A model generated the notes under the pieces. The model had not been told where the DNA came from, did no database searches, and saw only the letters and a program-made list of their open reading frames with translations. DNA of 64,000 bases from Sulfurimonadaceae bacterium (GTDB lineage: Bacteria > Campylobacterota > Campylobacteria > Campylobacterales > Sulfurimonadaceae): contig JAQUHB010000014.1 in the NCBI GenBank assembly GCA_028683835.1, forward strand, positions 1 through 64,000. The letters run 5' to 3'. A program made the position numbers and the translations under genes. Numbering within the stretch: position 1 is the first letter of the stretch; every line of letters starts with the position of its first letter. Positions 8,088-24,330 of the stretch are shown in pieces.

Positions 8088-9737
8088 ATGAAACTTCACT
8101 CTTATGATATAAGTCCAAAATGTACTACAAGCGTTGCTTATTTTTCTATGGAGTTTGCCATCGATCAAGCTTTAAAAATTTATTCTGGCGGACTCGGATT
8201 TTTAGCGGGTTCACATATGCGCAGTGCGTATGATCTTAAGCAAAATGTTGTAGGTATCGGGCTTTTGTGGAGCTTTGGTTACTATGATCAAGAACGAAAT
8301 GAGGATCGTACTTTAAAGCCTCAGTACACTCGTAAATACTATTATTTTCTAGAAGAGCTTAAAGAAAAAATCACAGTTAAAGTCCAGACAAAAGATGTTG
8401 TTGTAAAAGCATTTTTACTCCATTCTGAAGTATTTGGAACAGCCCCGATTATTTTGCTATCAACTGATACGGATGAAAATGATTATCTCTCTCGAACCAT
8501 CACGCATAAACTCTATGAATCAAATGAAAGAACACGTGTGGCTCAAGAGATAGTTCTTGGTATCGGCGGAGTGAAAATTTTAGAGGCACTTGGACGAAAA
8601 ACAGATATCTATCATATGAATGAAGGGCATGCACTTCCACTTGTATATGAGCTCAATAATCATTATCCAAATTTGGAAGAACTAAGAAAACATGTTGCAT
8701 TTACAACACACACTCCTGAAGCTGCGGGAAATGAAACACATAATATTCAGTTTTTACATGAGATGGGTTTTTTTAACGGACTCGATCTAGAGACTGCGCG
8801 TAGTATCAGCGGTTATGAAAATAATGATAATTTTTCTCTTACAGTTGGCGCTTTGCGTGTGAGCAAACGTGCGAATGCTGTTTCAAAGATACATGGAAAA
8901 GTCTCTAATGAGATGTGGTCGTATGTTGAGAACCGATGCGAGATTATCTCAATCACCAATGCACAAAATAAAAAATACTGGACAGATAAAACGCTTATTC
9001 GTGCTCTTGATGAGCATGAAGATTATGAGCTTGTGGCACGAAAAAAACACCTTAAAAAAGTTCTTTTTGATGAAGTGGCAGACCAGACAGGAAAGATGTT
9101 CGATCCAGAAGTCTTTACGATTGTCTGGGCAAGAAGGTTTGCTGAGTATAAGCGTCCGGGATTATTGAAATATGATTTTGAGAGATTTATAAAGCTTATT
9201 GAAAATACGCAAATGCCGGTTCAAATCATCTGGGCTGGCAAACCCTATCCGACAGATCATGGGGCTATTGATATCTTTAACGAACTTATTCATATTAGCC
9301 GTGAGCATAGAAATATTGCAGTCCTTGTCGGTTATGAACTTTCTTTGTCAAAAATGTTAAAACAGGGAAGCGACCTCTGGCTCAATACTCCAAGAATTAC
9401 GCGTGAAGCGAGTGGAACAAGTGGTATGACAGCAAGTATGAACGGTTCAGTACATTTTTCTATTAATGATGGATGGCATCCTGAGTTTGCAAGAGATGGT
9501 AAAAATGCTTTTACAATTCCAGAAGTTGATCATAATTTAAGTATTTTAGAACAAGACAGACTTGACAATAAAAATATGATGGATATTTTAGAAAAAACGA
9601 TTTTACCAATCTACTATACGAATCAGCATAAATGGACTCGGATTATGAAAAATGCGATGACAGAGATAGAGATAGAGTTTGACTCAGGTCGTATGGCAAA
9701 AGAATATTACGAACTTATGTACAACTACAAGGCTTAA
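8088..9737 (+). CDS. Short GT35 alpha-glucan phosphorylase-like protein lacking the PLP lysine
   Basis: A 549-aa GT35-family protein without the DUF3417 N-terminal region of long alpha-glucan phosphorylases. Family landmarks run the full length: AYFSMEFAIDQALKIYSGG at the start, HMNEGHALPLVYEL, FTTHTPEAAGNE, ARRFAEYKR with phosphate-site residues Arg350 and Lys355, and REASGTSGMTASMNG. Phosphorylases bind pyridoxal phosphate on the Lys of EASGT(S/G)(G/N)MK; here that position is Thr448. It therefore either holds the cofactor differently, is not a classical phosphorylase, or belongs to a functionally distinct GT35 subgroup. It is the first gene of the block and ends 1 bp before pgk, so a role in glucan turnover is likely, but the reaction is open. 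Confidence 0.8.
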   Translation: MKLHSYDISPKCTTSVAYFSMEFAIDQALKIYSGGLGFLAGSHMRSAYDLKQNVVGIGLLWSFGYYDQERNEDRTLKPQYTRKYYYFLEELKEKITVKVQTKDVVVKAFLLHSEVFGTAPIILLSTDTDENDYLSRTITHKLYESNERTRVAQEIVLGIGGVKILEALGRKTDIYHMNEGHALPLVYELNNHYPNLEELRKHVAFTTHTPEAAGNETHNIQFLHEMGFFNGLDLETARSISGYENNDNFSLTVGALRVSKRANAVSKIHGKVSNEMWSYVENRCEIISITNAQNKKYWTDKTLIRALDEHEDYELVARKKHLKKVLFDEVADQTGKMFDPEVFTIVWARRFAEYKRPGLLKYDFERFIKLIENTQMPVQIIWAGKPYPTDHGAIDIFNELIHISREHRNIAVLVGYELSLSKMLKQGSDLWLNTPRITREASGTSGMTASMNGSVHFSINDGWHPEFARDGKNAFTIPEVDHNLSILEQDRLDNKNMMDILEKTILPIYYTNQHKWTRIMKNAMTEIEIEFDSGRMAKEYYELMYNYKA

Positions 9738-9738
9738 A

Positions 9739-10959
9739 ATGACTTCCAATATAAAATATATGAGCGGTGTAAAAAGCTTAAAAGATATCGATGTATACGG
9801 TAAAAGAGTCTTGATTCGTGTAGACTTTAATGTTCCTCTTGATTCACATGGCAATATTTCAGATGATCGTCGAATTAAAGCAGCATTGCCTACGATTAAT
9901 TATTGTATTGATCATAACGCCTGTTCCATAACACTTGTAACACATCTTGGACGCCCAAAGGGTGGATATGAAGAAAAATATTCATTAAAACATATTCAAA
10001 AAAGGCTTGAAAGATTACTAGATAAAAGAGTTGAGTTTGTAGATGATTTTGAAAGTTCACAAAATGAGATTGCTACGTGTTCTAGAGAGAGAGTATTTTT
10101 GCTAGAAAATATTCGTTTTCATACACAAGAACAAAAAAATGATAGAGAGTTTTCAAAAAAATTAGCATCAATTTGCGATATCTACGTTAATGATGCTTTT
10201 GGAACAAGTCACAGAGAAGACTCTTCGACCTTTGGAATTACAGAGTTTGTTGATACAAAAATTGCAGGATTTTTGATGATAAAAGAGATAGAGGCATTTT
10301 CAAAAGCACTCGAAGAGCCTGTGCGTCCCATAGCCTTGGTAGTTGGAGGTGCGAAGATTTCTTCAAAGATCACTCTTTTAGAATCTGTGCTACAAAAAGT
10401 AGATAAACTCATGATCGGCGGAGCGATGAGCAATACCTTTTTAAAAGCTTTGGGATATGATATGAAAGACTCTTTATATGAAGAGGATTATGTTGCAACA
10501 GCCTTACAAGTAATGACTCAGGCAAAAGAGAAAGGTGTGAAGATCTACCTTCCTGTTGATCTGGTTGTTGCGGATTCCGTGGAAATACCAGTGGATGTAA
10601 AAGTCGTACCTGCGCAAGATGTGCTTGATGGATTTAAGGCTGTAGATATCGGACCGGCAACTGTAAAACTTTTTAGTGAAGCGGTGGAGATGTCAAATAC
10701 CATTATCTGGAATGGTCCGATGGGAATTTATGAGCAGGATAAGTTTTCAAAAGGGACATTTAAACTAGCAACTGCGATAGCTGATTGTTATGCGTACACA
10801 ATTGTCGGTGGCGGTGATACGGCTGATGCTGTTGAGAGATGTGGTGAGGCGAGTAATTTTAGTTTTATCTCTACGGGTGGCGGAGCGAGTTTAGAACTTT
10901 TAGAGGGCAAGATATTACCCGGATTTAAAAACTTGGATAGAAAAGAGGAGCGTATTTAA
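9739..10959 (+). CDS. pgk: Phosphoglycerate kinase
   Basis: Interconverts 1,3-bisphosphoglycerate and 3-phosphoglycerate with ATP. The 406-aa product has RVDFNVPL near the N-terminus, THLGRPKGG, NIRFH, YVNDAFGTSHR, VGGAKISSK, NGPMGIYE and the C-terminal GGGDTADAVE...STGGGASLE. The frame is open further upstream, but this ATG lies 1 bp after the GT35 stop, has AAGG six bases before it, and gives a normal length. The stop overlaps the pfkA start by 1 bp. Campylobacterota usually carry pgk beside gap and tpiA, so this copy may be a second, pathway-dedicated one; only the rest of the genome can tell. Confidence 0.95.
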   Translation: MTSNIKYMSGVKSLKDIDVYGKRVLIRVDFNVPLDSHGNISDDRRIKAALPTINYCIDHNACSITLVTHLGRPKGGYEEKYSLKHIQKRLERLLDKRVEFVDDFESSQNEIATCSRERVFLLENIRFHTQEQKNDREFSKKLASICDIYVNDAFGTSHREDSSTFGITEFVDTKIAGFLMIKEIEAFSKALEEPVRPIALVVGGAKISSKITLLESVLQKVDKLMIGGAMSNTFLKALGYDMKDSLYEEDYVATALQVMTQAKEKGVKIYLPVDLVVADSVEIPVDVKVVPAQDVLDGFKAVDIGPATVKLFSEAVEMSNTIIWNGPMGIYEQDKFSKGTFKLATAIADCYAYTIVGGGDTADAVERCGEASNFSFISTGGGASLELLEGKILPGFKNLDRKEERI

Positions 10960-11918
10960 TGGCTTTGGCAATCATGTGTTCTGGTGGCGATGCACCTGGG
11001 ATGAATCCTGCAATTAAAAAATTTGTTGATTATGCATTACAAAAAGGTGAAGAAGCATATTTGATTTATGATGGACTTGAAGGTCTTATAGATGGCAAAA
11101 TAAAAAAAGCCACCCATAAAGATGTTGCAGGAATAGTCCATTTTGGCGGGACTATTATCCGTTCTTCACGTTCAAAAAGATTTTTCGAATATGAATATAG
11201 AGAAAAAGCATATAATAATATAAAACAGAGTAGCATTAAAGGTATTATTGTTTTGGGCGGTGATGGTTCCTTTCGGGCGATGCAAAGATTCAGCTCAGAG
11301 TTTGATATTAATTTTGTCGGTATTCCCTCCACTATCGATAATGATATTTATGGCACAGAGTATTGTCTGGGTGTTGATACCTGTTTAAATGTTATCAGAG
11401 ATGCTTTAGATAAGATAAGAGATACCGCATCTTCGTTTAATCGTGCTTTCTTGATTGAGGTGATGGGTAGAGACTGTGGATATCTTGCTGTTGCATCGGC
11501 CATGGTGAGCGGTGCTGAGATCTGTATCATCCCTGAAGTGGAATTTAATAAAGAAAAGATGGAGACTAAGCTTGTACAAGAGATAGCAGAGGGTAGAAAT
11601 TACGCTTTAGCTATTATCTCTGAGGGCGCAAAAAAAACAACTGAAATTCATCAATGGATGGAGGAAAAACTTGGTCTGGAAACTAGAATCAGTATCTTGG
11701 GTCATATTCAAAGGGGTGGTAATCCTACTTATTATGATCGTATGATGGCTTTTGATTTTACGATTGCGGCGGTTGATTATCTTCTGACTCACAATGACTC
11801 GAATAAAGTGGTAGTGTTTAATAAGGGCGAATTTAGTTTTATTGAGATCGATGATGTAGTACAAAACAAATATGCGTTGCCACAGCATTTTTTAAACGCA
11901 GTAAATTATTTAGATTAA
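10959..11918 (+). CDS. pfkA: 6-phosphofructokinase
   Basis: Phosphorylates fructose-6-phosphate, the committing step of glycolysis. The 319-aa product has the group A PFK length and motifs: CSGGDAPGMNPAI (nucleotide site), GGDGS with Gly103 (a glycine here points to ATP; PPi enzymes have Asp), STIDND with catalytic Asp127, EVMGRDCGYLA and LGHIQRGGNPT. The residue before TIDND is Ser124 where E. coli has Gly. The TAATG overlap with pgk implies coupling. Phosphofructokinase is absent from the well-known Campylobacter and Helicobacter, so the gene is notable in this lineage. Confidence 0.93.
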   Translation: MALAIMCSGGDAPGMNPAIKKFVDYALQKGEEAYLIYDGLEGLIDGKIKKATHKDVAGIVHFGGTIIRSSRSKRFFEYEYREKAYNNIKQSSIKGIIVLGGDGSFRAMQRFSSEFDINFVGIPSTIDNDIYGTEYCLGVDTCLNVIRDALDKIRDTASSFNRAFLIEVMGRDCGYLAVASAMVSGAEICIIPEVEFNKEKMETKLVQEIAEGRNYALAIISEGAKKTTEIHQWMEEKLGLETRISILGHIQRGGNPTYYDRMMAFDFTIAAVDYLLTHNDSNKVVVFNKGEFSFIEIDDVVQNKYALPQHFLNAVNYLD

Positions 11919-11928
11919 AAGGAGAAAT

Positions 11929-14433
11929 ATGAAAGCAGTAGTTATGGCAGGCGGATTTGGAACAAGGATCCAGCCTTTGACACATTCACGTCCAAAGCCG
12001 ATGTTGCCAATCATGAATAAGCCGATGATGGAGCACACGATGATGATGCTCAAAGATCTTGGTATTAGCGAGTTTATCGTCCTTTTATATTTTAAACCTG
12101 AAATTATTCAAGATTATTTTAAAGATGGAGCTGATTTTGGTATCAAGATCACTTATGTTATTCCTGATGATGATTATGGAACTGCGGGAGCTGTAAAGCT
12201 TGCAGAGGAGTATATTGGAGATGAAAATTTCATTATTATCAGTGGTGATCTTGTAACTGATTTCGATTTCTCAAAACTATTTGATTTTCATACAAGTAAA
12301 AATGCAAAACTCTCTATCGGTCTGACTTCTGTAGAAAATCCTCTTCAATTTGGAGTTGTGATCGCCAATGAAAACAATGTGATCGAAAAGTTTCTAGAAA
12401 AGCCAAGCTGGGGCGAGGTATTTAGCGATACAATCAATACAGGAATCTACATCATAGAGCCGGAAATACTCAAGTTCATTCCAAAAAACGAAAATTTTGA
12501 TTTTGCAAAAGATCTTTTTCCTTTCCTCATGGGGAAAAATATTCCACTTATGGGATATAGTCTTGGTGGATACTGGCGCGATGTCGGCAATCCTGAGAGT
12601 TACCGCGAAGTGTATGAAGACCTTTTATCGAACAAAGCAAATTTTCAGATCTCTGGGATAAAACAGAACTATCCTGATGGAGTTCTTTATAGCAAAAGTA
12701 CATATAAACTTGATAGCTCTATTGAAATCGTCGGTACCGTTATGCTTGGAGAAAATGTCACAATAGCCAAAGATGTGAAGCTCATCAATGTGGTTATTGG
12801 CGATAATGTCACTATTGCAAGTGGTTCAAAGATAAGAAACAGTGTGTTATGGGATAAAGTCGTAGTAGGTAAAAACGCCAAGCTTGACAACTGCGTGATC
12901 TGTAATGATAATATTATCGGTAAAAATGTCAAAGCGAAAGCTGGAATGATATTGGCAGAAGGATGTGAAATAGGTGAACTCTCAGCGATCGAGCAAGATG
13001 TCATCATCTGGCCAAATAAAAAGATTGAAGCAGCATCGATTATTAGTCATAATCTTGTTCTTGGTACAAAATATAAAAACTCTATTTTTGAAAATGGAAG
13101 TGTTTCGGGTAAAAGTAATATGGAACTTTCATGCGAGATGGCTACAAAACTTGCAGAAGCTTTCGCAGCGCAACTTCCGGTAGGTTCTAAAGTGATTATA
13201 GGGCGCGATGATGATAAAAGCTCGCGTATGCTTAAACGTGCATTTTTAGGTGGAATACTCTCAGCTGGGATAGATGTCTTAGATATTAAAAATGTTCCTT
13301 CATCCGTGCTCCGTTTTGCTTTGGCGCATGATTCAAAACTCGTCGGTGGCGCTCACTTTAAAAGATGTATCGAAGATACGCTAAATTCTGAGATAACACT
13401 TTTTAATGAGGAGGCGATTCGAATCGACTTAAACTCTGCAAAGTCTATAGAAAAATCATTTTTTAGTGAAAAATTTCGCCGTGTTGATTATACACAAATC
13501 GGTACTATCCACGAGACCCTGCATCATGTAGAGTGTGCAAATTATAAACAGACTATGGAAGCCAAGATTAACCATTCTATTATTAAATGTAAAAATTTTA
13601 AAGTTGCTGTGGATTTGATGCATGGAACTACCGCGGAGATTTTTCCTAAACTTTTAAATGATCTTGGGATTGAAAATATAATCCTTAATAGTTATTATGA
13701 TGAGAAAAAACTAGCAAATGTCACAGCTTTAGAGAAAAAATCTTATGCAAATATCTCTTCCATTGTTAAGAGTTTAGATTATGATATGGGTGTGATTATC
13801 TATCCAAATGCACAAAAATTGACTTTGGTAACTCAAGAAGGGGTGATACTCGATAAGGTAAAAATCCTTTACAGTGTTTTAGGTCTTTTAAATATCGATG
13901 CAAAAGAGAGGAAAAAACGGGTCTTTTTACCGACTTGGGCACCTGATATCAAATATTTTGAAAATCTTGAGATTGAACGTGGAAAATATGTGAATCTTAA
14001 AGCTTCTGAGCTTCAAAAATACGATCTGATCGCTACAGTAGATGGTAACTTTGCCTTTACAGAGTTTGGCTATACGCGTGATGCGATGTATGCGAGTTTG
14101 AAAGTTATGCAGCTTTTGAGCTGTCATGATATTCAGTTGTCAGAACTGGCAAAGAGTGTAGATAATTTTTACTATAAATCACTTAAAGTTGATTGTACTC
14201 AGGCGCTCAAGGGCAAAATGATGAGAAAGTTCTTAGAAGATGCCAAGGGTAAAAAATCATCATCTTTGGATGGTGTGAAGATATGGGAAAATGAAACTGA
14301 TTGGATTTTAATGATTCCAGATCAATATTCAGAACATCTCAATATTTATATCCAAGCTATCGATACTGTTTCTGGGGAAACCCTTTATGAGCGTTATATA
14401 CAAAAGATTGCTGCGTGGTCAATAGGAGGTTGA
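11929..14433 (+). CDS. Sugar-1-phosphate nucleotidyltransferase fused to a degenerate phosphomannomutase-like domain
   Basis: An 834-aa three-part protein. Residues 1-235 are a nucleotidyltransferase (AGGFGTRIQPLTHSRPKPML, ISGDLVTDFD, INTGIYI, GYWRDVGNPESY). Residues about 250-375 are left-handed beta-helix hexapeptide repeats. Residues about 385-834 resemble a phosphohexomutase. The mutase part looks inactive: the phosphoserine loop reads GGAHFKRCIEDT (473-484) with no SHNP, and the metal loop reads YPNAQK (625-630) instead of DxDGDR. Similar fusions are annotated as mannose-1-phosphate guanylyltransferase/phosphomannomutase. As no separate glgC is seen, it may supply the sugar nucleotide for the GlgA enzymes. 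The ATG has AGGAGA upstream. Confidence 0.82.
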   Translation: MKAVVMAGGFGTRIQPLTHSRPKPMLPIMNKPMMEHTMMMLKDLGISEFIVLLYFKPEIIQDYFKDGADFGIKITYVIPDDDYGTAGAVKLAEEYIGDENFIIISGDLVTDFDFSKLFDFHTSKNAKLSIGLTSVENPLQFGVVIANENNVIEKFLEKPSWGEVFSDTINTGIYIIEPEILKFIPKNENFDFAKDLFPFLMGKNIPLMGYSLGGYWRDVGNPESYREVYEDLLSNKANFQISGIKQNYPDGVLYSKSTYKLDSSIEIVGTVMLGENVTIAKDVKLINVVIGDNVTIASGSKIRNSVLWDKVVVGKNAKLDNCVICNDNIIGKNVKAKAGMILAEGCEIGELSAIEQDVIIWPNKKIEAASIISHNLVLGTKYKNSIFENGSVSGKSNMELSCEMATKLAEAFAAQLPVGSKVIIGRDDDKSSRMLKRAFLGGILSAGIDVLDIKNVPSSVLRFALAHDSKLVGGAHFKRCIEDTLNSEITLFNEEAIRIDLNSAKSIEKSFFSEKFRRVDYTQIGTIHETLHHVECANYKQTMEAKINHSIIKCKNFKVAVDLMHGTTAEIFPKLLNDLGIENIILNSYYDEKKLANVTALEKKSYANISSIVKSLDYDMGVIIYPNAQKLTLVTQEGVILDKVKILYSVLGLLNIDAKERKKRVFLPTWAPDIKYFENLEIERGKYVNLKASELQKYDLIATVDGNFAFTEFGYTRDAMYASLKVMQLLSCHDIQLSELAKSVDNFYYKSLKVDCTQALKGKMMRKFLEDAKGKKSSSLDGVKIWENETDWILMIPDQYSEHLNIYIQAIDTVSGETLYERYIQKIAAWSIGG

Positions 14434-14434
14434 T

Positions 14435-16456
14435 TTGAAACTGAGCTTTATATGGCATATGCATCAACCGGATTACCGTGATGGAAGTGGTATTATGCAG
14501 ATGCCTTGGGTATTTTTGCATGCCATAAAAGATTATTATGATATGCCATGGATGGTGTCACGTCATAACGGCATCAAAGCTACTTTTAATATTACACCTA
14601 CCTTGATACAGCAGTTAAAACTTTATTATGTTCAGCCTCAAGCAAGCGATCGCTTCTTAGCTTTGTGGTCCGTGCATCCCTCTTCGTTAGCTGAAGAAGA
14701 CAGAAAATGGGTGATTAAGATCTGTAAAAGCGCAACTGCAAAGACGATGCTTGAATCTTCTGCTAGATATAGAGAACATCATAATCAGGAACATTTTAAT
14801 AATAATGAGCTGATTGACTTAGAGATACTTTTTGTACTTTCATGGTGTGGTGCATATGTCAAAGAAAATAATATTATCGTACAGCAACTCATCGCCAAAC
14901 AAAAAGATTATACTAATGATGAAAAACTCACTCTGTTAAACGAGCTCTCCATTTTTATCGCAGGGATATTTGATTATTACCTTAAACTTCATAACGATGG
15001 TCTCATTACACTTTCAACTACGCCATTAACTCATCCGATATTACCGCTTTTAATGGATATGAATAATGCCTTAAGTGCAAATCCAAATACGGATATTCCA
15101 AAAGATTTTATGGATCTCTCAGAGGATGCACGCTTGCATGTAACAAAAGCAAAAGATCTATTTTTTGAGACATTTGGCTTTATGCCAACTGGTTTTTGGC
15201 CTGCTGAGGGAGCAGTAGACACAAAAAGCATTGCGCTTTTAAAAGAGTGTGGTGTTGAGTGGATCGCTACAGATGAAGAGATTTTATTTCGTTCACTTAA
15301 CTCTTCAGTGAGAGAAAATCTTTATACTCCTTACATGTATAAAGGGATGCGTATTGTTTTTCGAAATCATTATCTCAGTGATTTGATAGGTTTTACTTAT
15401 TCCCAAATGGAAACTTCTTTAGCCGTGTCAAATTTTATGCATGAGCTTGAAAAAATAGAACATACAGATGCTGATGCGACTGTCTTTGTTATCTTAGATG
15501 GTGAAAACGCTTGGGAGTTTTTTAGTAATAATGGCTTCGATTTTTTTGATTCTTTATATAAAAATCTTCAAGAATCTTCATGGTGTCAAAGTGTGACAAT
15601 GGCTGAAGTATTGCAATTGCCAGCAAGAGAATTGGCATATTTGGCTGCTGGTAGCTGGATCCATGGAAATTTTAATACTTGGGTTGGACATCGTGAAAAA
15701 ACAAGAGCTTGGGAGTTGATCTATTTGACCAAAAGAGATTATGAACATCATAAAAACTCATTGAGTGAAGAGACCCGAGAAAAGATAACGGAGCACTTTT
15801 TATTAGCTGAATCTTCAGATTGGTTTTGGTGGTATGGAGATGATCACTATAGTGAATTTGGAGCAGAGTTTGATGAGCTTTTTCGCTTCCATCTCATTGA
15901 TATCTATACCCTGATCAACATAGCTCCGCCATCAGATCTTTTTATCCCTATTATTGAACATAAAAGCACACAAAATTTTTGGTTACAGCCCCAATCAGAT
16001 ATCTCTCCAATCATTAATGGTAAACATGATTCCTTCTTTGAGTGGATTGGTTGTGGAATCATTGATGAGAGTAAACTTTTTTCCACTATGGATAAAGAGC
16101 GTGGACCGATAAAGAAAATTTTGTATGGACAAGATGATTTAAAACTCTATTTTGCTTTTGAAGCGAGGATGAGTGAGCTTTGTGGTACTTATACAATGGA
16201 GATTATTTTAGAACCTCTTGGACTAAGAAAAAAAGTAAATTTTGAGATACAAACAAGCTTCATTGGTGAATTAGAACTTTATGTGATGTGCCAAGATCTT
16301 TTAGAAATGAGCATAGACAGAAGTAAAATTACGATCGATGAGATCTCTATAAAGTTTGAGCTTGAAAAAGATGGTCAGATTATTCAGATATTACCAGGAT
16401 TTGGCGAGCTTAAAATCGATCTGAGTAATGATTATAGTAGAAACTGGTTTATATAA
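14435..16456 (+). CDS. GH57 alpha-glucan-active enzyme (first copy)
   Basis: A 673-aa glycoside hydrolase family 57 protein, a family of alpha-amylases, 4-alpha-glucanotransferases and branching enzymes. It has the N-terminal FIWHMHQPDYRD, nucleophile Glu258 in GFWPAEGAVD and a likely acid/base Asp355 in VILDGENAWEFF. About 200 residues past the barrel are not assigned. The start is TTG with a strong AGGAGGT (14424-14430) ahead of it; the gene begins 1 bp after the fusion gene. It has no signal peptide, so it acts in the cytoplasm. Sequence alone does not separate amylase from transferase. It is clearly different from the next GH57 gene. Confidence 0.85.
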   Translation: MKLSFIWHMHQPDYRDGSGIMQMPWVFLHAIKDYYDMPWMVSRHNGIKATFNITPTLIQQLKLYYVQPQASDRFLALWSVHPSSLAEEDRKWVIKICKSATAKTMLESSARYREHHNQEHFNNNELIDLEILFVLSWCGAYVKENNIIVQQLIAKQKDYTNDEKLTLLNELSIFIAGIFDYYLKLHNDGLITLSTTPLTHPILPLLMDMNNALSANPNTDIPKDFMDLSEDARLHVTKAKDLFFETFGFMPTGFWPAEGAVDTKSIALLKECGVEWIATDEEILFRSLNSSVRENLYTPYMYKGMRIVFRNHYLSDLIGFTYSQMETSLAVSNFMHELEKIEHTDADATVFVILDGENAWEFFSNNGFDFFDSLYKNLQESSWCQSVTMAEVLQLPARELAYLAAGSWIHGNFNTWVGHREKTRAWELIYLTKRDYEHHKNSLSEETREKITEHFLLAESSDWFWWYGDDHYSEFGAEFDELFRFHLIDIYTLINIAPPSDLFIPIIEHKSTQNFWLQPQSDISPIINGKHDSFFEWIGCGIIDESKLFSTMDKERGPIKKILYGQDDLKLYFAFEARMSELCGTYTMEIILEPLGLRKKVNFEIQTSFIGELELYVMCQDLLEMSIDRSKITIDEISIKFELEKDGQIIQILPGFGELKIDLSNDYSRNWFI

Positions 16457-16464
16457 GGATGGAC

Positions 16465-18498
16465 ATGAAAAAAGTATCGCTTCTCTTTGGTATCCACATG
16501 CATCAGCCCGTTGACAATTTTGGAGATGCGGTGGAAGAGGCTATAAACCTGTGTTACAAACCTTTCTTTGAAACGATGGTCAGATATCCTGAGTTTAAGT
16601 TTGCAGTGCATTCAAGCGGATGGCTACTTGATCTGATACGTATCAAACATGAGGATATCTTTGAAAATATACAGCTTTTAACAAAACAGGGTTCTATTGA
16701 ATGGATCAGTGCCGGATATTATGAACCGGTGTTAAGTGCTATACCCTCTTGCGATAGAGTCGCTCAAATTGAGATGATGAACAAGTTTATAAAAAAATAT
16801 TTCGGTGTTCAACCAAAAGGGCTCTGGCTGACAGAGCGAGTTTGGGAGAGCGCATTGGTTCCTGATCTCTTTACATGTAAGATCGATTATGTGCTTGTGG
16901 ATGATTACCATTTTTTAAGCAGCGGTTATGATGCTTCCACAATGGATGGATATTATACGACAGAAGAGGGCGCAAAAGAACTCTCTCTTTTTCCAATAGC
17001 AAAATCATTGCGTTACGCTCTCCCGTTTTACAGTGTACAAAGATCCATAGAGACTATTTTGGCATGTTCTAAACGTGAAAATTCTGCGGCTATCATCTTT
17101 GATGATGCTGAGAAATTTGGTCTTTGGCCTAAAACGCATGAATGGGTGTATGAGAAAAAATGGCTTGAGCAATTTGTAGAAGCTGTGTTATCACATAAGC
17201 AGATTATTCCAGAGCATTATAGTCACTATATGAAAAAAAATCGCTCTTTGGGGATTGCATATCTTGGCAATACCTCTTACGTAGAGATGGGTGAATGGAG
17301 TTTACATGCGAAACAAATGCTCTCTCTTGAAAAACTCAAACAGGATGTCGGCGAAGAATACTTTAATGATGTTGGTGTTGCATTTATAAAAGGTGGTATC
17401 TGGAAAAACTTTTTTGTTAAATACCATGAAAGTAACTATCTCCATAAACGTATGCTTTACTTTAGCAAGAATCAAGCAAAACTTTCAAAAACTGCTTTAG
17501 AGTCTTTGTATAAGCTTCAGACAAATGATGTATTTTGGCATGGAGTTTTTGGCGGTTTATATCTTCCGAATCTTCGAGATAATGCGTATAGATATCTTCT
17601 TGAACTTGAAAAATCAAGAGTGAAAAAAGGGATTAGTTTCGAAATACTAGATATTGATATAGATGGCTATGATGAGTTAAAAGTGGTGACACACAATATC
17701 AGTGCTATTTTTTCGAGTAAATTTGGCGGACAGATGGTAGAATTTGGCTCTTTTGACACACTCTTTAACTGGCAAAATACGCTTATGCGACGTTATGAAG
17801 CCTATCATGAAAAGATATTCCAGGCCAAAGATAGAGTGCTTGTTCATGAAGAAAAAAATGATGAGATAGCAACGATTCACCATGATAGCGTCGTACTAGA
17901 TGAGGAGCTTAAAGCGGAACTTATCTATGACTGGCATCCAAAAAACTCTTTTGTCGAACATATTTGTACAGATCCTTTGACATTTGATACTTATAGAAAA
18001 TTAGAATTTAAAGATGTCGCAGATTTTGCAAATCAACCATTTCTTCTTGCAAAACATAAAACCGTTTTTAGTCGTGAGGGCGCTATTTATTTGAATGAAC
18101 CTTACAAAACGATGATGAAAAAAGAGTATGCTTTTGATACAAATTCTATTGTCTTGAAGCTCGATTGTAAAACTTCTTATGAAGGAAGTCTCTATTTTGC
18201 ACAAGAGTTCAATTTTCATTTTGCACATCCTCATAAGGTGACTTTTAATGGTAAGACCATTGAAGAGGGACTTAGTGAGTACGACTGCAAAGAGTTAATT
18301 ATAATAGATGATTTTACAAATAAGATTTTAAAAATCAAGATGAGTCAAGAATGTACGATCATTGGATATATCTTAAACACTGTTTCACAAAGTGAAAGCG
18401 GTTTCAATAAGATGGCGCAGGAGATCTCATTTGTTTTGACCCTGCCGTTTGTCAAAAACCTTACATGGAATGTGGAATTGGAGTTGGAAAATGTCTGA
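16465..18498 (+). CDS. GH57 4-alpha-glucanotransferase/amylase (second copy)
   Basis: A 677-aa GH57 enzyme of the Thermococcus glucanotransferase type. It shows GIHMHQPVDNFGDAV, nucleophile Glu124 in GLWLTERVWE and acid/base Asp214 in FDDAEKFGLWP, nearly the positions known from Thermococcus litoralis (Glu123, Asp214), followed by C-terminal beta-sandwich regions of the DUF1925/DUF1926 kind. An ATG also occurs at 16459, but AAGG (16455-16458) abuts it, whereas it is six bases from the ATG at 16465, which is preferred. Likely role: moving maltodextrin segments during glucan remodelling. The stop overlaps the start of the GalT-family gene. Confidence 0.88.
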   Translation: MKKVSLLFGIHMHQPVDNFGDAVEEAINLCYKPFFETMVRYPEFKFAVHSSGWLLDLIRIKHEDIFENIQLLTKQGSIEWISAGYYEPVLSAIPSCDRVAQIEMMNKFIKKYFGVQPKGLWLTERVWESALVPDLFTCKIDYVLVDDYHFLSSGYDASTMDGYYTTEEGAKELSLFPIAKSLRYALPFYSVQRSIETILACSKRENSAAIIFDDAEKFGLWPKTHEWVYEKKWLEQFVEAVLSHKQIIPEHYSHYMKKNRSLGIAYLGNTSYVEMGEWSLHAKQMLSLEKLKQDVGEEYFNDVGVAFIKGGIWKNFFVKYHESNYLHKRMLYFSKNQAKLSKTALESLYKLQTNDVFWHGVFGGLYLPNLRDNAYRYLLELEKSRVKKGISFEILDIDIDGYDELKVVTHNISAIFSSKFGGQMVEFGSFDTLFNWQNTLMRRYEAYHEKIFQAKDRVLVHEEKNDEIATIHHDSVVLDEELKAELIYDWHPKNSFVEHICTDPLTFDTYRKLEFKDVADFANQPFLLAKHKTVFSREGAIYLNEPYKTMMKKEYAFDTNSIVLKLDCKTSYEGSLYFAQEFNFHFAHPHKVTFNGKTIEEGLSEYDCKELIIIDDFTNKILKIKMSQECTIIGYILNTVSQSESGFNKMAQEISFVLTLPFVKNLTWNVELELENV

Positions 18499-19507
18499 GA
18501 TACGATTGGATAGAATCCACAATAAATATGTTGTAATAGCGCCGGAGAGATTATTTCGGCCAAATCTAGATTGTCGTAATGAGAAAAAAAACAGTGCATC
18601 TATAATCTGCCCTTTTTGTGATGGCAATGAAGACCTTACTCCACATGAAATCTTTGCCATACGTGATAACGGGGAAAACGAACCCTCTTGGAGGACAAGA
18701 GTTGTTCCAAATCTCTACAAAGCGGTACAGATAGAACTCTCCGATATTTCAAAAAGAGATGGAATATTTGAGTCTATTCCCGGAGTCGGCGCACATGAGA
18801 TTCTCATTGATTCTCCTTGTCATGAATGTGATTTTTACCAGCTTGAGGCTTCTGCTATAGAAGATTGGCTTCGAACTATGATTATTCGTATTGAGGATTT
18901 GAAAAATGATACGCGATTGATTTATTTGAGTATCTTTAAAAATGTCGGTATCAACGCAGGTGCGACTCAAGAACATCCTCATACTCAGCTTTTAGCTTTG
19001 CCTATTATGCCAAAAGAGGAGATGGCATTTTTAGAGGAAAATATGCGATATTATCGAAGTCATGGACGAGGCTTGATAGAAGATGTGGTCTGCAATGAGC
19101 TTTCATCTAAAACAAGGATAGTTACACGTCATGGTAATTTTGTCGCATTCTGTCCATACGCTAGTGCTTATCCTTTTGAGGTGATAATAGCACCTCTTAC
19201 AAATATTGCTTCTTTATGTAAATGTGGTAGACAAGATGTATCGGATCTTTCCATTTTGATAAAAAGGGTGTTTGGAAGCCTACATAAGCAGCTTGGGCAT
19301 TTTGCTTATAACCTCTCTTTAAAGATGGCACCGCTCAATACAAATTTTGAAAATGAAGTTTATATGAATCATTTGAATAAAAATTACCGTTTTATTTTAC
19401 GTATCACTCCGCGTATCTATAATCTTGGTGGTTTTGAGATCTCTACAGGTATGGCGATAAACAGTGTCGTACCTGAAGAATCTGCGAAAATGCTCGGTGG
19501 AGAATAA
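18491..19507 (+). CDS. GalT-family nucleotidyl/hexose-1-phosphate transferase
   Basis: A 338-aa protein of the galactose-1-phosphate uridylyltransferase branch of the HIT superfamily. The active-site triad region is His162-Pro-His164-Thr-Gln166; His164 would carry the nucleotidyl intermediate. A zinc pair CPFC is at 40-43 and CHEC lies near residue 113. The ATG at 18491 overlaps the previous stop and gives the natural family N-terminus MSEIRLD. No galK or galE is nearby and the gene lies 3 bp before glgA, so a role with ADP- or UDP-glucose (for example as a nucleotide-sugar phosphorylase) seems more likely than galactose use. This is inference from context. Confidence 0.8.
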   Translation: MSEIRLDRIHNKYVVIAPERLFRPNLDCRNEKKNSASIICPFCDGNEDLTPHEIFAIRDNGENEPSWRTRVVPNLYKAVQIELSDISKRDGIFESIPGVGAHEILIDSPCHECDFYQLEASAIEDWLRTMIIRIEDLKNDTRLIYLSIFKNVGINAGATQEHPHTQLLALPIMPKEEMAFLEENMRYYRSHGRGLIEDVVCNELSSKTRIVTRHGNFVAFCPYASAYPFEVIIAPLTNIASLCKCGRQDVSDLSILIKRVFGSLHKQLGHFAYNLSLKMAPLNTNFENEVYMNHLNKNYRFILRITPRIYNLGGFEISTGMAINSVVPEESAKMLGGE

Positions 19508-19510
19508 AAG

Positions 19511-20896
19511 ATGAAGATTTTGTTTGCTTCAAGTGAGATATTTCCATATGCAAAAAGCGGCGGACTTGCAGATGTGGCGGATGCACTACCTAGAGCATTA
19601 AGTTCTTATACTGAACTTTACAGGGTGATCCCTTTGTATGGTTTTATGAGTAAAAAGGATCTTCAGTTATCTCAGAGTTTTGAAGTGAGTTTAGGAAATA
19701 AAAAATACAAAATCAATCTATATACAAAACTTCAAAATACTCTAAACCTATTTTTTTTAGAAGCACCGCTTTTAAGTGAGACTCAAAATCTTTATTGTGA
19801 CAAAGAGGGTGATTACGTAGATAATGATCTTCGTTTTGCGATCTTTTGTAAAGCAGTCGTTGCTCTTGCCGTGAACTTACATGTAGATATTTTACACCTT
19901 AACGACTGGCACACCTCTTTGTGTGCACTTTTTGCCAAAGAGCAAAAACTAGCTCTCAAAACAGTTTTAACTATTCATAATCTTGCGTATCAAGGAATAT
20001 TTGAGAAAGAGACACTTGCACGGCTTGGTATCAGTGAAAAATATTTTACGATGGACAGCTTGGAGTTTTATGGCAAGGTCAACTTTTTAAAAGCAGGCAT
20101 CGCGTACAGTGACGCAGTTACAACGGTGAGTCCAAGCTATGCAAAAGAGATACTCACATCAGAGTTTGGATGTGGGCTTGAAGGATTCTTGACACATCAC
20201 AAAGCAAAACTCAGCGGTATTTTAAACGGCATCAATGAGGTTGTTTTTGATCCTCGAAGTGATAAAATCATTTATACTTCTTATGAAAATATAGAGGGAA
20301 AATATCAAAACAAAGTCGCCTTGCTAAAAACTTCAAAACTCAAAGATCCAAGGAAACCTTTATTTGTAATGATCACTCGGCTGGTTGAACAAAAAGGGAT
20401 CGATCTTGTACTCGAATCGATGGAAAAATTACTACAAAATAAGCTTAATCTTTTTATTATCGGCGAGGGTGAGGCAAGATTTACAGAGCAGTTGCAAACT
20501 CTTTGCTTAAAACATGAGAATTTTGAGTTTTTTAATGGTTATGATGAGGTATTATCACATCAGCTTTATGCTGCAGCAGATTTTTTGCTGATGCCATCAC
20601 GCTTTGAACCTTGCGGCCTAAACCAAATGATCGCGATGCGTTATGGAACGATTCCCATCGTACATGCAACTGGAGGTTTAAAAGACAGTGTTCATGAAGA
20701 TAGATCTAAATGCGGACAAGGAATACTTTTTAATAAGCAAAGCAAGCAGGCATTTTTACTTGCGCTTAAGAGAGCTTTGATGCTCAAAAAAGAGAGAAAG
20801 CAGTTTGAAGCACTAGTGAGTTTTAATATGCAATGTGATTTCTCATTTGAACAAAGTGCATTGGCATATCTCAAAATCTATGAGAGTTTTGTATGA
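19511..20896 (+). CDS. glgA: Glycogen synthase (GT5), copy 1
   Basis: Transfers glucose from a nucleotide-glucose to the growing alpha-1,4-glucan. The 461-aa GT5 protein begins MKILFASSEIFPYAKSGGLADV with the donor-binding Lys15. It has HLNDWHTSL, LTIHNLAYQG, RLVEQKGIDLV and the C-terminal RFEPCGLNQMIAMRYGTIP with the catalytic Glu. It is about 30 residues shorter than copy 2 and clearly diverged from it. It starts 3 bp after the GalT-family gene, which ends with a GGTGGAG ribosome binding site. Confidence 0.92.
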   Translation: MKILFASSEIFPYAKSGGLADVADALPRALSSYTELYRVIPLYGFMSKKDLQLSQSFEVSLGNKKYKINLYTKLQNTLNLFFLEAPLLSETQNLYCDKEGDYVDNDLRFAIFCKAVVALAVNLHVDILHLNDWHTSLCALFAKEQKLALKTVLTIHNLAYQGIFEKETLARLGISEKYFTMDSLEFYGKVNFLKAGIAYSDAVTTVSPSYAKEILTSEFGCGLEGFLTHHKAKLSGILNGINEVVFDPRSDKIIYTSYENIEGKYQNKVALLKTSKLKDPRKPLFVMITRLVEQKGIDLVLESMEKLLQNKLNLFIIGEGEARFTEQLQTLCLKHENFEFFNGYDEVLSHQLYAAADFLLMPSRFEPCGLNQMIAMRYGTIPIVHATGGLKDSVHEDRSKCGQGILFNKQSKQAFLLALKRALMLKKERKQFEALVSFNMQCDFSFEQSALAYLKIYESFV

Positions 20897-20935
20897 CCTC
20901 AGTCCATGCGACTTTACTTTTATAAAGGATAAAAT

Positions 20936-22414
20936 ATGGAAAAAAGAAAATTAAATATCTTATTTGTAGCTTCAGAAGTTGTACCATTCGCAAAAACAGG
21001 CGGGCTTGCAGACGTGGCTGGAGCACTTCCAAAAGCACTTAAAGCTCTTGGACACAATATCATCGTCGTGATGCCAAGGTATTATAAGATCGATCCATCA
21101 AAACTCACAAAACTTGAGGCTCCCCTAGGTGTGCCGATGGGTGCGATGGGAGAGCTTTGGGCAGGAGTCTATACATCAACTTTGCCGGGAAATGATGTGC
21201 CTATCTATTTTATAGATCATGAGCGTTATTTTGGAAGAGGTGGTTTGTATGAAGATCATGACGGTTCTTATGAAGATAACGGTAACCGTTTTGTCTTCTT
21301 CTCAAAAGCCGCTTTACAGCTGTGTAAGATGCTTTCTTTTACGCCGGATATTATCCATGCAAATGATTGGCATACAGCGGTTATTCCTCTTTTGGCAAAG
21401 ACAAGATTTGTTCATGATTTCGCAAATGCAAAATCTGTTTTAACGATTCATAACTTACAGCACCAAGGACATTTTCATAAAAATTTGATGGATCTCCTCG
21501 AAGTGGGCTGGGAGCATTTTAATGCACGTGAGTTTGAGAGTTTTAATAGTGTAAACCTTTTAAAAGGGGGCATTATGCACGCAGATGCCGTTACGACCGT
21601 CTCGAAAAAATATGCTGATGAGATTCAAACGCGTGAGTTTGGTTTTGGGCTTGAGGGGCATATTCAAGCACATAGTGCAAAGCTTTTTGGGATTTTAAAC
21701 GGTGTGGACTATGATGAGTGGAATCCTTCGGTAGATAATTTGATTGCTGAAAAATTTGATGTGGGTGATATGGGTGGTAAGCTTACATGTAAGCGTGATA
21801 TACAGCGTCATTTCAACCTTGAAGTTCGTGATGATGTGCCGCTTATCGGTTTTGTGGGACGTTTTGCAGAGCAAAAAGGGATAGGTCTTATTGCCGGAAT
21901 TATTCATGGATTACTTGATATGGATCTACAAATTGTGATGCTTGGTACCGGTGAAAAATGGGCTGAGGGATTTTTTAGTGATGTTGCAACGCATCGAAGT
22001 AACTTTGGTTTGCATGTAGGTTATTCTGACGCGCTTGCACATAGCATTGAAGCGGCAAGCGATATGTTTTTGATGCCCTCACTCTTTGAACCTTGCGGGT
22101 TAAATCAAATATACAGTCTGAGATATGGAACTTTACCAATCGTTCGTGCAACAGGCGGACTTGATGACACGATCCAAAATTTTGATGAACACCATGAACA
22201 TGGAAACGGATTTAAGTTTTATGATGCTACGCAAGAGGCTTTGTATTACACCGTTTTATGGGCGGTCAATATCTATAAAAAAGATAAAAAAAGTTTTTTA
22301 GATATGCAAGAGCGTGCGATGCAACAGCATTTTGGTTGGGATGATTCGGCAAAAAGTTATGTGGAGGTATATAACTATATTTTAGGTTTAACAGCCCAAA
22401 AGCCCTCATTATGA
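20936..22414 (+). CDS. glgA: Glycogen synthase (GT5), copy 2
   Basis: The second GT5 synthase, 492 aa, with the more canonical N-terminus FVASEVVPFAKTGGLADV (Lys20), HANDWHTAVIP, TIHNLQHQG, VGRFAEQKGIGLI and LFEPCGLNQIYSLRYGTLP. AAAGGA precedes the ATG in a 39-bp gap after copy 1. The stop overlaps the glgB start (ATGA), so synthase and branching enzyme are translationally coupled. Of the two copies this is the better candidate for the main ADP-glucose-dependent synthase. Confidence 0.95.
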   Translation: MEKRKLNILFVASEVVPFAKTGGLADVAGALPKALKALGHNIIVVMPRYYKIDPSKLTKLEAPLGVPMGAMGELWAGVYTSTLPGNDVPIYFIDHERYFGRGGLYEDHDGSYEDNGNRFVFFSKAALQLCKMLSFTPDIIHANDWHTAVIPLLAKTRFVHDFANAKSVLTIHNLQHQGHFHKNLMDLLEVGWEHFNAREFESFNSVNLLKGGIMHADAVTTVSKKYADEIQTREFGFGLEGHIQAHSAKLFGILNGVDYDEWNPSVDNLIAEKFDVGDMGGKLTCKRDIQRHFNLEVRDDVPLIGFVGRFAEQKGIGLIAGIIHGLLDMDLQIVMLGTGEKWAEGFFSDVATHRSNFGLHVGYSDALAHSIEAASDMFLMPSLFEPCGLNQIYSLRYGTLPIVRATGGLDDTIQNFDEHHEHGNGFKFYDATQEALYYTVLWAVNIYKKDKKSFLDMQERAMQQHFGWDDSAKSYVEVYNYILGLTAQKPSL

Positions 22415-24330
22415 AAAACCGAATCTTTTATGATGTGACGCTTTTTAGCGAGTTTGACATCTACCTTTTCAAAGAGGGAACACACGTAAAACTTTACAAT
22501 CATCTTGGTTCACATCGTATACAAAGAGAAGGGGTGGCTGGAGTTTATTTTGCACTCTGGGCTCCAAATGCGAATTGCGTACATGTAAGAGGTGATTTTA
22601 ATGACTACAGTACGACTTCCCATCCATTAAAAAACCGTGATGATGGTTCTGGAATTTGGGAAGGTTTTATTGAGGGTGTAGAAGAGGAGATGACCTATAA
22701 GTATCATATAGATTCAAATGCCTCACACGGTAGCTCCGACAAGGCTGATCCCTACGCTTTTTATGCGGAAGTCGCACCTAGTTCAGCTTCAAAAATCTGT
22801 AATCTTGACGGCTACGTTTGGGGCGATCATGAGTGGATGAAAACACGCTATAAAAACAATTCTCATAAAGCTCCAGTTTCGGTCTATGAGCTTCATCTTG
22901 GCTCATGGAGAAGAAAAGTCGAAGAGGATAACCGCTTTTTGACCTACTTAGAACTTGCAGATGAATTAGCCGAATACATTAAAGAGATGGGTTTTACCCA
23001 CGTGGAGATCATGCCGATCACCGAGTATCCGTTTGAGGGTTCTTGGGGTTATCAAACAACGGGATATTTTGCTCCGACATCACGTTATGGAACTCCGAGT
23101 GAGTTTATGAGTTTTGTGGATATTTTGCACAACAACGGCATCGGCGTAATACTTGATTGGGTGCCTTCGCACTTTGTGACAGACGGGCATGGACTTTCAA
23201 ATTTTGACGGCACATGTCTGTATGAACATGAAGACCCGCGAAAAGGGTTTCATCCAGAATGGGGCAGTGCGATTTTTAATTATGATAGAAACGAAGTACG
23301 CGCATTTTTGGTGAGTTCGGCACTTTTTTGGTTGGAAAAATATCATTTAGACGGTATCCGTGTAGATGCAGTGGCTTCGATGCTCTATCTTGATTATGCC
23401 CGAAAAGAGGGCGAATGGGTGCCAAACGAGGATGGCAGCAACGTCAACCGCGGTGCTGTACAGTTTTTAAAACAGCTCAATTCTACCGTTTATGAGGCAT
23501 ACAGTGACATCATGATGTTTGCAGAAGAATCCACAAACTACTCAAAGGTCAGCCGTCCTGTAAGCCAAGGCGGGCTTGGTTTTGGCTACAAATGGAATAT
23601 GGGCTGGATGCATGACATCTTAAAATATATGAAGTTTGATCCCTTGTTTCGCCAGCACCATCATCAAAATCTGACATTTAGTTTTGTTTATATGTACAAT
23701 GAAAACTATATCTTGCCACTGAGTCATGATGAAGTTGTTCATATGAAGGGTTCTCTTATTAATAAAATGCCAGGAGATAATGAGAAAAAATTTGCAAATC
23801 TTCGAGCGCTTTTTTCTTTGATGTACGCACATCCAGGAAAAAAACTACTTTTTATGGGTGGAGAGTTCGCACAGTTTGCCGAGTGGAATTTTGAGCAAAG
23901 TTTAGACTGGCATTTACTTGCGTATGATGGACATAAGGGTGTACAAAACCTTATAAAAGAGCTCAATTACTTATATAAAACAGAACCTTCGCTGCACAGA
24001 AATGATGTGGAAAAAGAGGGCTTTTCTTGGATAGATGAAAATGATTACAGCGCAAATGTGATCTCTTTTATAAGAAAGGGCGCAAGAAATGAAAAGCCTC
24101 TCATGATCATCTGTAATTTTTCAGACAAAGAGCATATAGGCTATCCAATAGGAGTTCCAACACGCGGTGAGTATGTGGAGATTTTTAACTCTAATGACTC
24201 TTTATATGGCGGGTATGGCCAGACAAATGCGACACCGAACAAGACACAAGCTAAAGAGTGTCACGGAAGAAAAAACAGTTTACATATAACGCTTGCACCA
24301 CTAAGTGTGATCTATCTTAAAAGGGTGTAA
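22411..24330 (+). CDS. glgB: 1,4-alpha-glucan branching enzyme (GH13)
   Basis: Introduces alpha-1,6 branches in glycogen. The 639-aa protein has a CBM48-like N-terminal module (about 30-125, GVYFALWAPNANCVHVRGDF), a GH13 barrel with nucleophile Asp319 (DGIRVDAVASMLY), acid/base Glu372 (MFAEEST) and transition-state Asp440 (LSHDEVVH), and a C-terminal all-beta domain. VYELHLGSWRR and GVILDWVPSHF are typical of GlgB. The length fits the form lacking the extra N1 domain. It is the last + strand gene of the block and converges on the SGNH/MBOAT pair. Confidence 0.97.
   Translation: MKNRIFYDVTLFSEFDIYLFKEGTHVKLYNHLGSHRIQREGVAGVYFALWAPNANCVHVRGDFNDYSTTSHPLKNRDDGSGIWEGFIEGVEEEMTYKYHIDSNASHGSSDKADPYAFYAEVAPSSASKICNLDGYVWGDHEWMKTRYKNNSHKAPVSVYELHLGSWRRKVEEDNRFLTYLELADELAEYIKEMGFTHVEIMPITEYPFEGSWGYQTTGYFAPTSRYGTPSEFMSFVDILHNNGIGVILDWVPSHFVTDGHGLSNFDGTCLYEHEDPRKGFHPEWGSAIFNYDRNEVRAFLVSSALFWLEKYHLDGIRVDAVASMLYLDYARKEGEWVPNEDGSNVNRGAVQFLKQLNSTVYEAYSDIMMFAEESTNYSKVSRPVSQGGLGFGYKWNMGWMHDILKYMKFDPLFRQHHHQNLTFSFVYMYNENYILPLSHDEVVHMKGSLINKMPGDNEKKFANLRALFSLMYAHPGKKLLFMGGEFAQFAEWNFEQSLDWHLLAYDGHKGVQNLIKELNYLYKTEPSLHRNDVEKEGFSWIDENDYSANVISFIRKGARNEKPLMIICNFSDKEHIGYPIGVPTRGEYVEIFNSNDSLYGGYGQTNATPNKTQAKECHGRKNSLHITLAPLSVIYLKRV

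Follow-up and report, generated by a model that had tools for sequence, protein, structure and literature searches.

The locus and its GT35 protein

The window (the whole 64,000-nt stretch of Sulfurimonadaceae DNA that was analyzed) carries a cluster of glycolysis and glycogen genes at 8088-24330. GT35 proteins that lack the pyridoxal-phosphate (PLP) lysine are called T-type here, and those that have it are called K-type. The features of the cluster are as follows, all on the forward strand.

8088..9737 (+), T-type GT35 protein of 549 aa that belongs to TIGR02094 (444 bits vs. cut-off 191.7) but lacks the PLP lysine
9132..9155 (+), RRFAEYKR (residues 349-356); phosphate-site residues R349, R350, Y354, and K355 kept, from the alignment
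9405..9428 (+), EASGTSGM (E440-M447), sugar/phosphate-binding turn kept; E440, A441, G443, T444, S445, and G446 invariant in the alignment
9429..9431 (+), ACA codon, Thr448 at the PLP-lysine position (MalP K646), from the reading frame and the alignment
9739..10959 (+), phosphoglycerate kinase (pgk), next gene of the cluster
10959..11918 (+), 6-phosphofructokinase (pfk)
11929..14433 (+), sugar-1-phosphate nucleotidylyltransferase/phosphohexomutase fusion, likely NDP-glucose supplier
14435..16456 (+), GH57 protein
16459..18498 (+), GH57 protein, alpha-amylase/4-alpha-glucanotransferase type
18488..19507 (+), GalT-like nucleotidylyltransferase; start uncertain (TTG at 18449 or 18488)
19511..20896 (+), GlgA glycogen synthase 1 (GT5)
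20936..22414 (+), GlgA glycogen synthase 2 (GT5); motifs KTGGLADV and EPCGL align with GlgA; also present in relatives
22411..24330 (+), GlgB branching enzyme, the sole GH13 protein found in the window genome

The GT35 reading frame was uninterrupted and gave 549 residues on translation. A gap of 169 nt separated it from ispH, and pgk started 1 nt after its end. This spacing makes it plausible that the gene heads the cluster, as a preliminary description of this DNA had stated, but the 169-nt gap yielded no promoter-like match.

The window protein scored 444.1 bits against the NCBIfam model TIGR02094 ("alpha-glucan family phosphorylase"), above the curated cut-off of 191.7 bits. Its scores were 51 bits against TIGR02093 and 38.2 bits against TIGR02095 (GlgA), the latter below the cut-off of 328.45 bits. 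The AlphaFold (AF2) model was a confident GT-B fold (mean pLDDT 88.5, pTM 0.89) with a low-scoring glycine loop (27-36). The top Foldseek matches listed were all GT35 phosphorylases, the best being that of Segatella copri (TM 0.90). This glycogen phosphorylase, the closest solved relative, has Lys in the Thr448 column (EASGTSGEKAEMNG).

In an alignment that included MalP and GlgP of Escherichia coli MG1655, the motif E440-A-S-G-T-S-G-M447-T448-A placed Thr448 in the column of MalP residue 646. MalP K646 is the lysine that carries PLP (PMC11046441). At site 448 the Schiff-base lysine is gone. The protein thus lacks the Lys of EASGT(S/G)(G/N)xK by which a PLP-dependent alpha-glucan phosphorylase (EC 2.4.1.1) is recognized, and it has the phosphate-site Arg/Lys and the active-site His, Asn, and Glu expected of the same enzyme (R350, K355, H208, N291, and E440). 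Both the Thr in place of the lysine and the retention of Arg350 and Lys355 had been reported in the preliminary description, and the alignment confirmed them at the positions given there.

A lysine-less clade in two phyla

Homologs were taken from GTDB contigs, relatives of the window genome, the phylum, plasmids, and Bacteroidota. The GTDB relatives were the best 80 of 400 matches, and phyla beyond Campylobacterota and Bacteroidota were sampled through plasmid records only. Among 132 distinct homologs with a readable motif, all from Campylobacterota and Bacteroidota and 50-93% identical to the window protein, site 448 was Thr in 85, Ser in 45, Ala in 2, and Lys in none. Lys occupied the aligned site in 33/33 more distant K-type TIGR02094 proteins (35% identity or less). 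The split by identity was therefore clean, all readable homologs with at least 50% identity being without the lysine and all those with 35% or less having it. A search of viral contigs for T-type relatives gave no match. Eleven codons were in use at site 448 (all four Thr, both AGY Ser, three TCN, and two GCN codons), which indicates that the DNA changes while the residue stays small and mostly hydroxyl-bearing. With 132/132 homologs without Lys and these eleven codons, a sequencing error is ruled out for practical purposes, including the AAA-to-ACA base-call error at 9429-9431 that had been named as a possible source of the Thr. The GT35 subgroup suspected from the single sequence is real, and it is wider than could be known from the window, since it spans two phyla.

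The dN/dS values of two T-type pairs were 0.055 and 0.066, and T-type proteins are under strong purifying selection. At a dN/dS of about 0.06 and with invariant catalytic residues, the rest of the protein is intact, as had been supposed, and the chance that the window copy is a decaying pseudogene is negligible. One Campylobacterota genome carried a T-type copy broken by stops and frameshifts (G100:C1:456702-458231).

In a maximum-likelihood tree (69 rows, outgroup E. coli MalP/GlgP), all lysine-less proteins formed a single clade, with an SH-aLRT support of 100, whose stem was 1.94 changes per column long and joined the tree at the base of TIGR02094. The clade consisted of a Campylobacterota and a Bacteroidota sub-clade, and one change of state suffices. 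Lys is present in the outgroup and in every other TIGR02094 line, so that the simplest reading of the sequences is a loss of Lys on the T-type stem, in a part of the tree where the branching order is unsettled and long branches call for caution.

Eight residues were 100% conserved in the 132 T-type proteins (H208, N291, R350, Y354, K355, E440, G443, and T444), which we take to be H377, N484, R569, Y573, K574, E672, G675, and T676 in rabbit numbering. Phosphate-pocket residues kept in the T-type were R349, R350, K355, K385, G34-G35, and T444. Thirty-six positions were at least 97% conserved in the T-type but rare in K-types. Fourteen of these lay in active-site loops (107/549 positions; Fisher test, P = 0.004), which we defined from the alignment, so that the enrichment is indicative only; they included E417, S421, Q293, V346-W347, W382, P386, and K425. 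S421 was fixed in the T-type, and Ala was found there in 30/33 K-types. E417, which is likewise changed and fixed, and S421 adjoin the invariant Y416 in the C-domain loop, which in phosphorylases lies beside the PLP ring.

The T-type shared with TIGR02094 phosphorylases (CAZy GT35; e.g., S. copri 9l6i) the GT-B fold (TM 0.90), a family HMM score over the cut-off, the EASGTSG and RR..YKR motifs, and the sugar-site His, Asn, and Glu. It differed from them by Thr/Ser in place of Lys, by an identity of about 29-35%, and by its own long-stemmed clade; compared with longer TIGR02094 members, the window protein lacked an N-terminal region of approximately 95 residues. Fold and catalytic layout were also those of the TIGR02093 glycogen and maltodextrin phosphorylases (GlgP/MalP), save for the PLP lysine, and T-type proteins scored 41-54 bits against the TIGR02093 model vs. 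65-108 bits for K-type TIGR02094 proteins. Judged by sequence, the T-type is thus GT35 by homology and not a PLP phosphorylase by the defining cofactor residue.

GT5 GlgA and GT3 synthases are also retaining GT-B enzymes, and they work without PLP; for the T-type, NDP-sugar use is a hypothesis. In profile alignment, H208, R350, K355, and E440 matched the catalytic His, Arg, Lys, and Glu of E. coli GlgA, residues that are also common to GT35. The T-type was not nearer to GlgA than PLP-type GT35 is (hhalign, 48.5 vs. 88.7 and 66.6). The family-model scores of some members hinted at convergence on GlgA (up to 50 bits against TIGR02095 vs. 48 bits against TIGR02093), but this was rejected because other members had no TIGR02095 match and hhalign gave no support.

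Gene neighborhoods in Campylobacterota and Bacteroidota

Most Campylobacterota T-type genes lay inside or beside a glycolysis-glycogen gene cluster. Much of the window gene set recurred at the other Campylobacterota loci, where it was frequently preceded by GAPDH and phosphoglucose isomerase; phosphoglucose isomerase adjoined the T-type gene in 37/79 loci. ROK glucokinase-like genes were directly upstream of the T-type gene at two loci (L040 and L051), and at a third (L162, G057 contig C58) a ROK-family glucokinase-like domain was fused in frame upstream of the T-type GT35. A free-standing protein of approximately 91 residues that resembles the AMPK glycogen-binding domain (AMPK1_CBM, below the Pfam cut-off) was encoded in the cluster at L004 (6364-6639) and at 15 other Campylobacterota loci. 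The GalT-like protein of the window operon (18449-19507) may act as an NDP-glucose phosphorylase and not in galactose metabolism.

GlgC scored over its cut-off in 0/41 genomes, the window genome included, and the 11929-14433 fusion seems to be its stand-in in Campylobacterota glycogen clusters. The T-type gene and the fusion occurred together in 19 of these genomes, the T-type gene alone in 1, the fusion alone in 3, and neither in 18. The window genome had no second GT35, no GlgX, and no GH13 amylase. Approximately 10/44 TIGR02094-bearing Campylobacterota genomes had the T-type together with a separate Lys-bearing TIGR02094 phosphorylase. Because both are kept side by side there, the two enzymes are not interchangeable in these genomes.

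In Bacteroidota, the T-type was found in 24/198 sampled genomes and was the only GT35 protein in all 24. Strict replacement of the Lys enzyme by the T-type thus holds in these 24 genomes but fails in Campylobacterota. GT5 GlgA was present in 13 of the 24, a GT3 synthase in 7 others, and GlgB in 18; of the 11 genomes without full GT5 GlgA, 7 had GT3, which left 4/24 without either. Because 20/24 have a GT5 or GT3 synthase, the T-type was rejected as the sole glucan synthase. No conserved neighbors of the T-type gene, glycogen genes included, were found at the Bacteroidota loci. On a Runella rosea plasmid (L142), a small gene of the pyridoxamine-phosphate-oxidase family (10627-11067) followed the T-type gene, and it was not conserved at other Bacteroidota loci. 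T-type Bacteroidota genomes also carried an N-terminal GT5 half-GlgA of approximately 270 residues (e.g., G389:C11:642180-642839), including where a full synthase was present; a GT5 fragment in Bacteroidetes has been mentioned (PMC11046441).

Candidate functions of the T-type enzyme

Glycogen phosphorylase is a textbook PLP enzyme, and it has long been asked why a family of GT-B glucosyltransferases came to use PLP. The two nucleotide-sugar phosphates of other GT-B enzymes have positional counterparts in the substrate phosphate and the PLP phosphate of phosphorylases. Given this equivalence, a lysine-less GT35 that keeps Arg, Lys, Glu, and His is what one would expect an NDP-sugar user to look like. 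A review has proposed that an NDP-sugar-dependent proto-GT35 once held a nucleoside monophosphate where PLP now sits (PMC11046441).

The preliminary description had put forward a PLP-independent subgroup. The subgroup stands, and covalent PLP is impossible at residue 448; that PLP was lost altogether is what we infer, and we consider the T-type to be probably PLP-independent. From its conserved residues, we infer an active retaining GT-B alpha-1,4-glucan glucosyltransferase without covalent PLP. The reading that we favor, tentatively, is that the empty cofactor site of this PLP-independent alpha-glucan glucosyltransferase is most likely occupied by a nucleotide sugar or, in reverse, by NDP. 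A glucosyltransferase had also been suggested in the preliminary description. The PLP lysine gave way to a small, mostly hydroxyl-bearing residue, and part of the nucleotide sugar would have taken over the vacated site. The glucose-proximal phosphate of the NDP would then stand in for the substrate phosphate, with the second one standing in for that of PLP. In the reverse direction, glucan and NDP might yield NDP-glucose, from which the GalT-like partner in Campylobacterota could make glucose-1-phosphate.

Two observations count against NDP-sugar use: the profile comparison showed no shift to GlgA, and another synthase looks redundant, because the window operon has two GlgA and 20/24 T-type Bacteroidota have GT5 or GT3. 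Since most of these genomes already encode a dedicated synthase, we give the reverse reaction, or a special acceptor (a primer or a short maltodextrin), the same plausibility as bulk synthesis. The co-occurrence of the T-type gene with the NDP-sugar pyrophosphorylase fusion counts for NDP-sugar use, but this link may simply mirror the GlgA genes. The Bacteroidota pattern, in which the T-type is the only GT35, suggests a breakdown role at least as much as synthesis, by an anion- or loose-PLP-dependent phosphorylase or by a glucan:NDP glucosyltransferase. That a GT35 lineage abandoned PLP and now works with nucleotide sugars, or with NDP as the glucosyl acceptor in making NDP-glucose from glycogen (the GalT-like protein then possibly yielding glucose-1-phosphate), is a proposal that we hold with less confidence than the general reading above.

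It is unlikely, in our estimate, that the T-type is still a phosphate-dependent glucan phosphorylase in which non-covalent PLP, free phosphate, or another anion in the phosphate pocket does the acid/base work. Catalysis in phosphorylases depends on the phosphate of the cofactor and not on the Schiff base, and a phosphorylase with a reduced PLP linkage stays active, which counts for this possibility, as do the retained pocket residues. In addition, neither the window genome nor any of the 24 T-type Bacteroidota, most of them with glycogen synthesis genes, encodes another GT35, and the window genome is without GlgX or GH13 amylase. However, not one of 132 sequences has reverted to Lys, although AAA/AAG is one base from ACA/ACG, and the residues of the ring-side loop have changed as well.

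Loss of the key cofactor residue would also suit a subunit without catalytic activity that binds glucan and has a structural or regulatory part in a glycogen-enzyme assembly, a role with which the in-frame ROK fusion in one genome and the small AMPK1_CBM-like neighbor (below the Pfam cut-off) are consistent. We regard such a subunit as improbable, because both phyla retain E440, R350, K355, H208, and the rest of the catalytic set without variation, which a pure binder does not need, and Bacteroidota members have no conserved glycogen neighbors. The invariance of all GT-B catalytic residues likewise makes the purely acceptor-binding role offered in the preliminary description less likely. A glucanotransferase, a hydrolase, or another donor/acceptor pair (e.g., glucose-1-phosphate as the acceptor, or free glucose passed to the neighboring glucokinase) is also improbable: the adjoining (L040 and L051) or fused (G057) ROK glucokinase and the frequent phosphoglucose isomerase equally suit the pathway as a whole, and the retained phosphate-binding Arg/Lys pair is needless for such reactions.

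A natural, conserved lysine-less clade with an otherwise intact site offers a direct test of how GT35 acquired PLP. If the nucleotide-dependent reading is true, then the T-type would be a case, in the opposite direction, of the PLP/nucleotide exchange that has been put forward for GT35 evolution, and it would be, to our knowledge, the first enzyme of the glycogen phosphorylase family shown to work without PLP. We know of no earlier account of the T-type clade, and no description of a lysine-less GT35 clade was found in the collection of open-access papers that was searched, which has few subscription papers and no bioRxiv preprints. T-type members are named glgP at NCBI, and the phosphorylase name is probably wrong. 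Automatic glgP names in Campylobacterota and Bacteroidota (e.g., WP_114070759.1 and WP_025603925.1) should not imply PLP phosphorylases, and the glycogen breakdown predicted for these bacteria changes accordingly.
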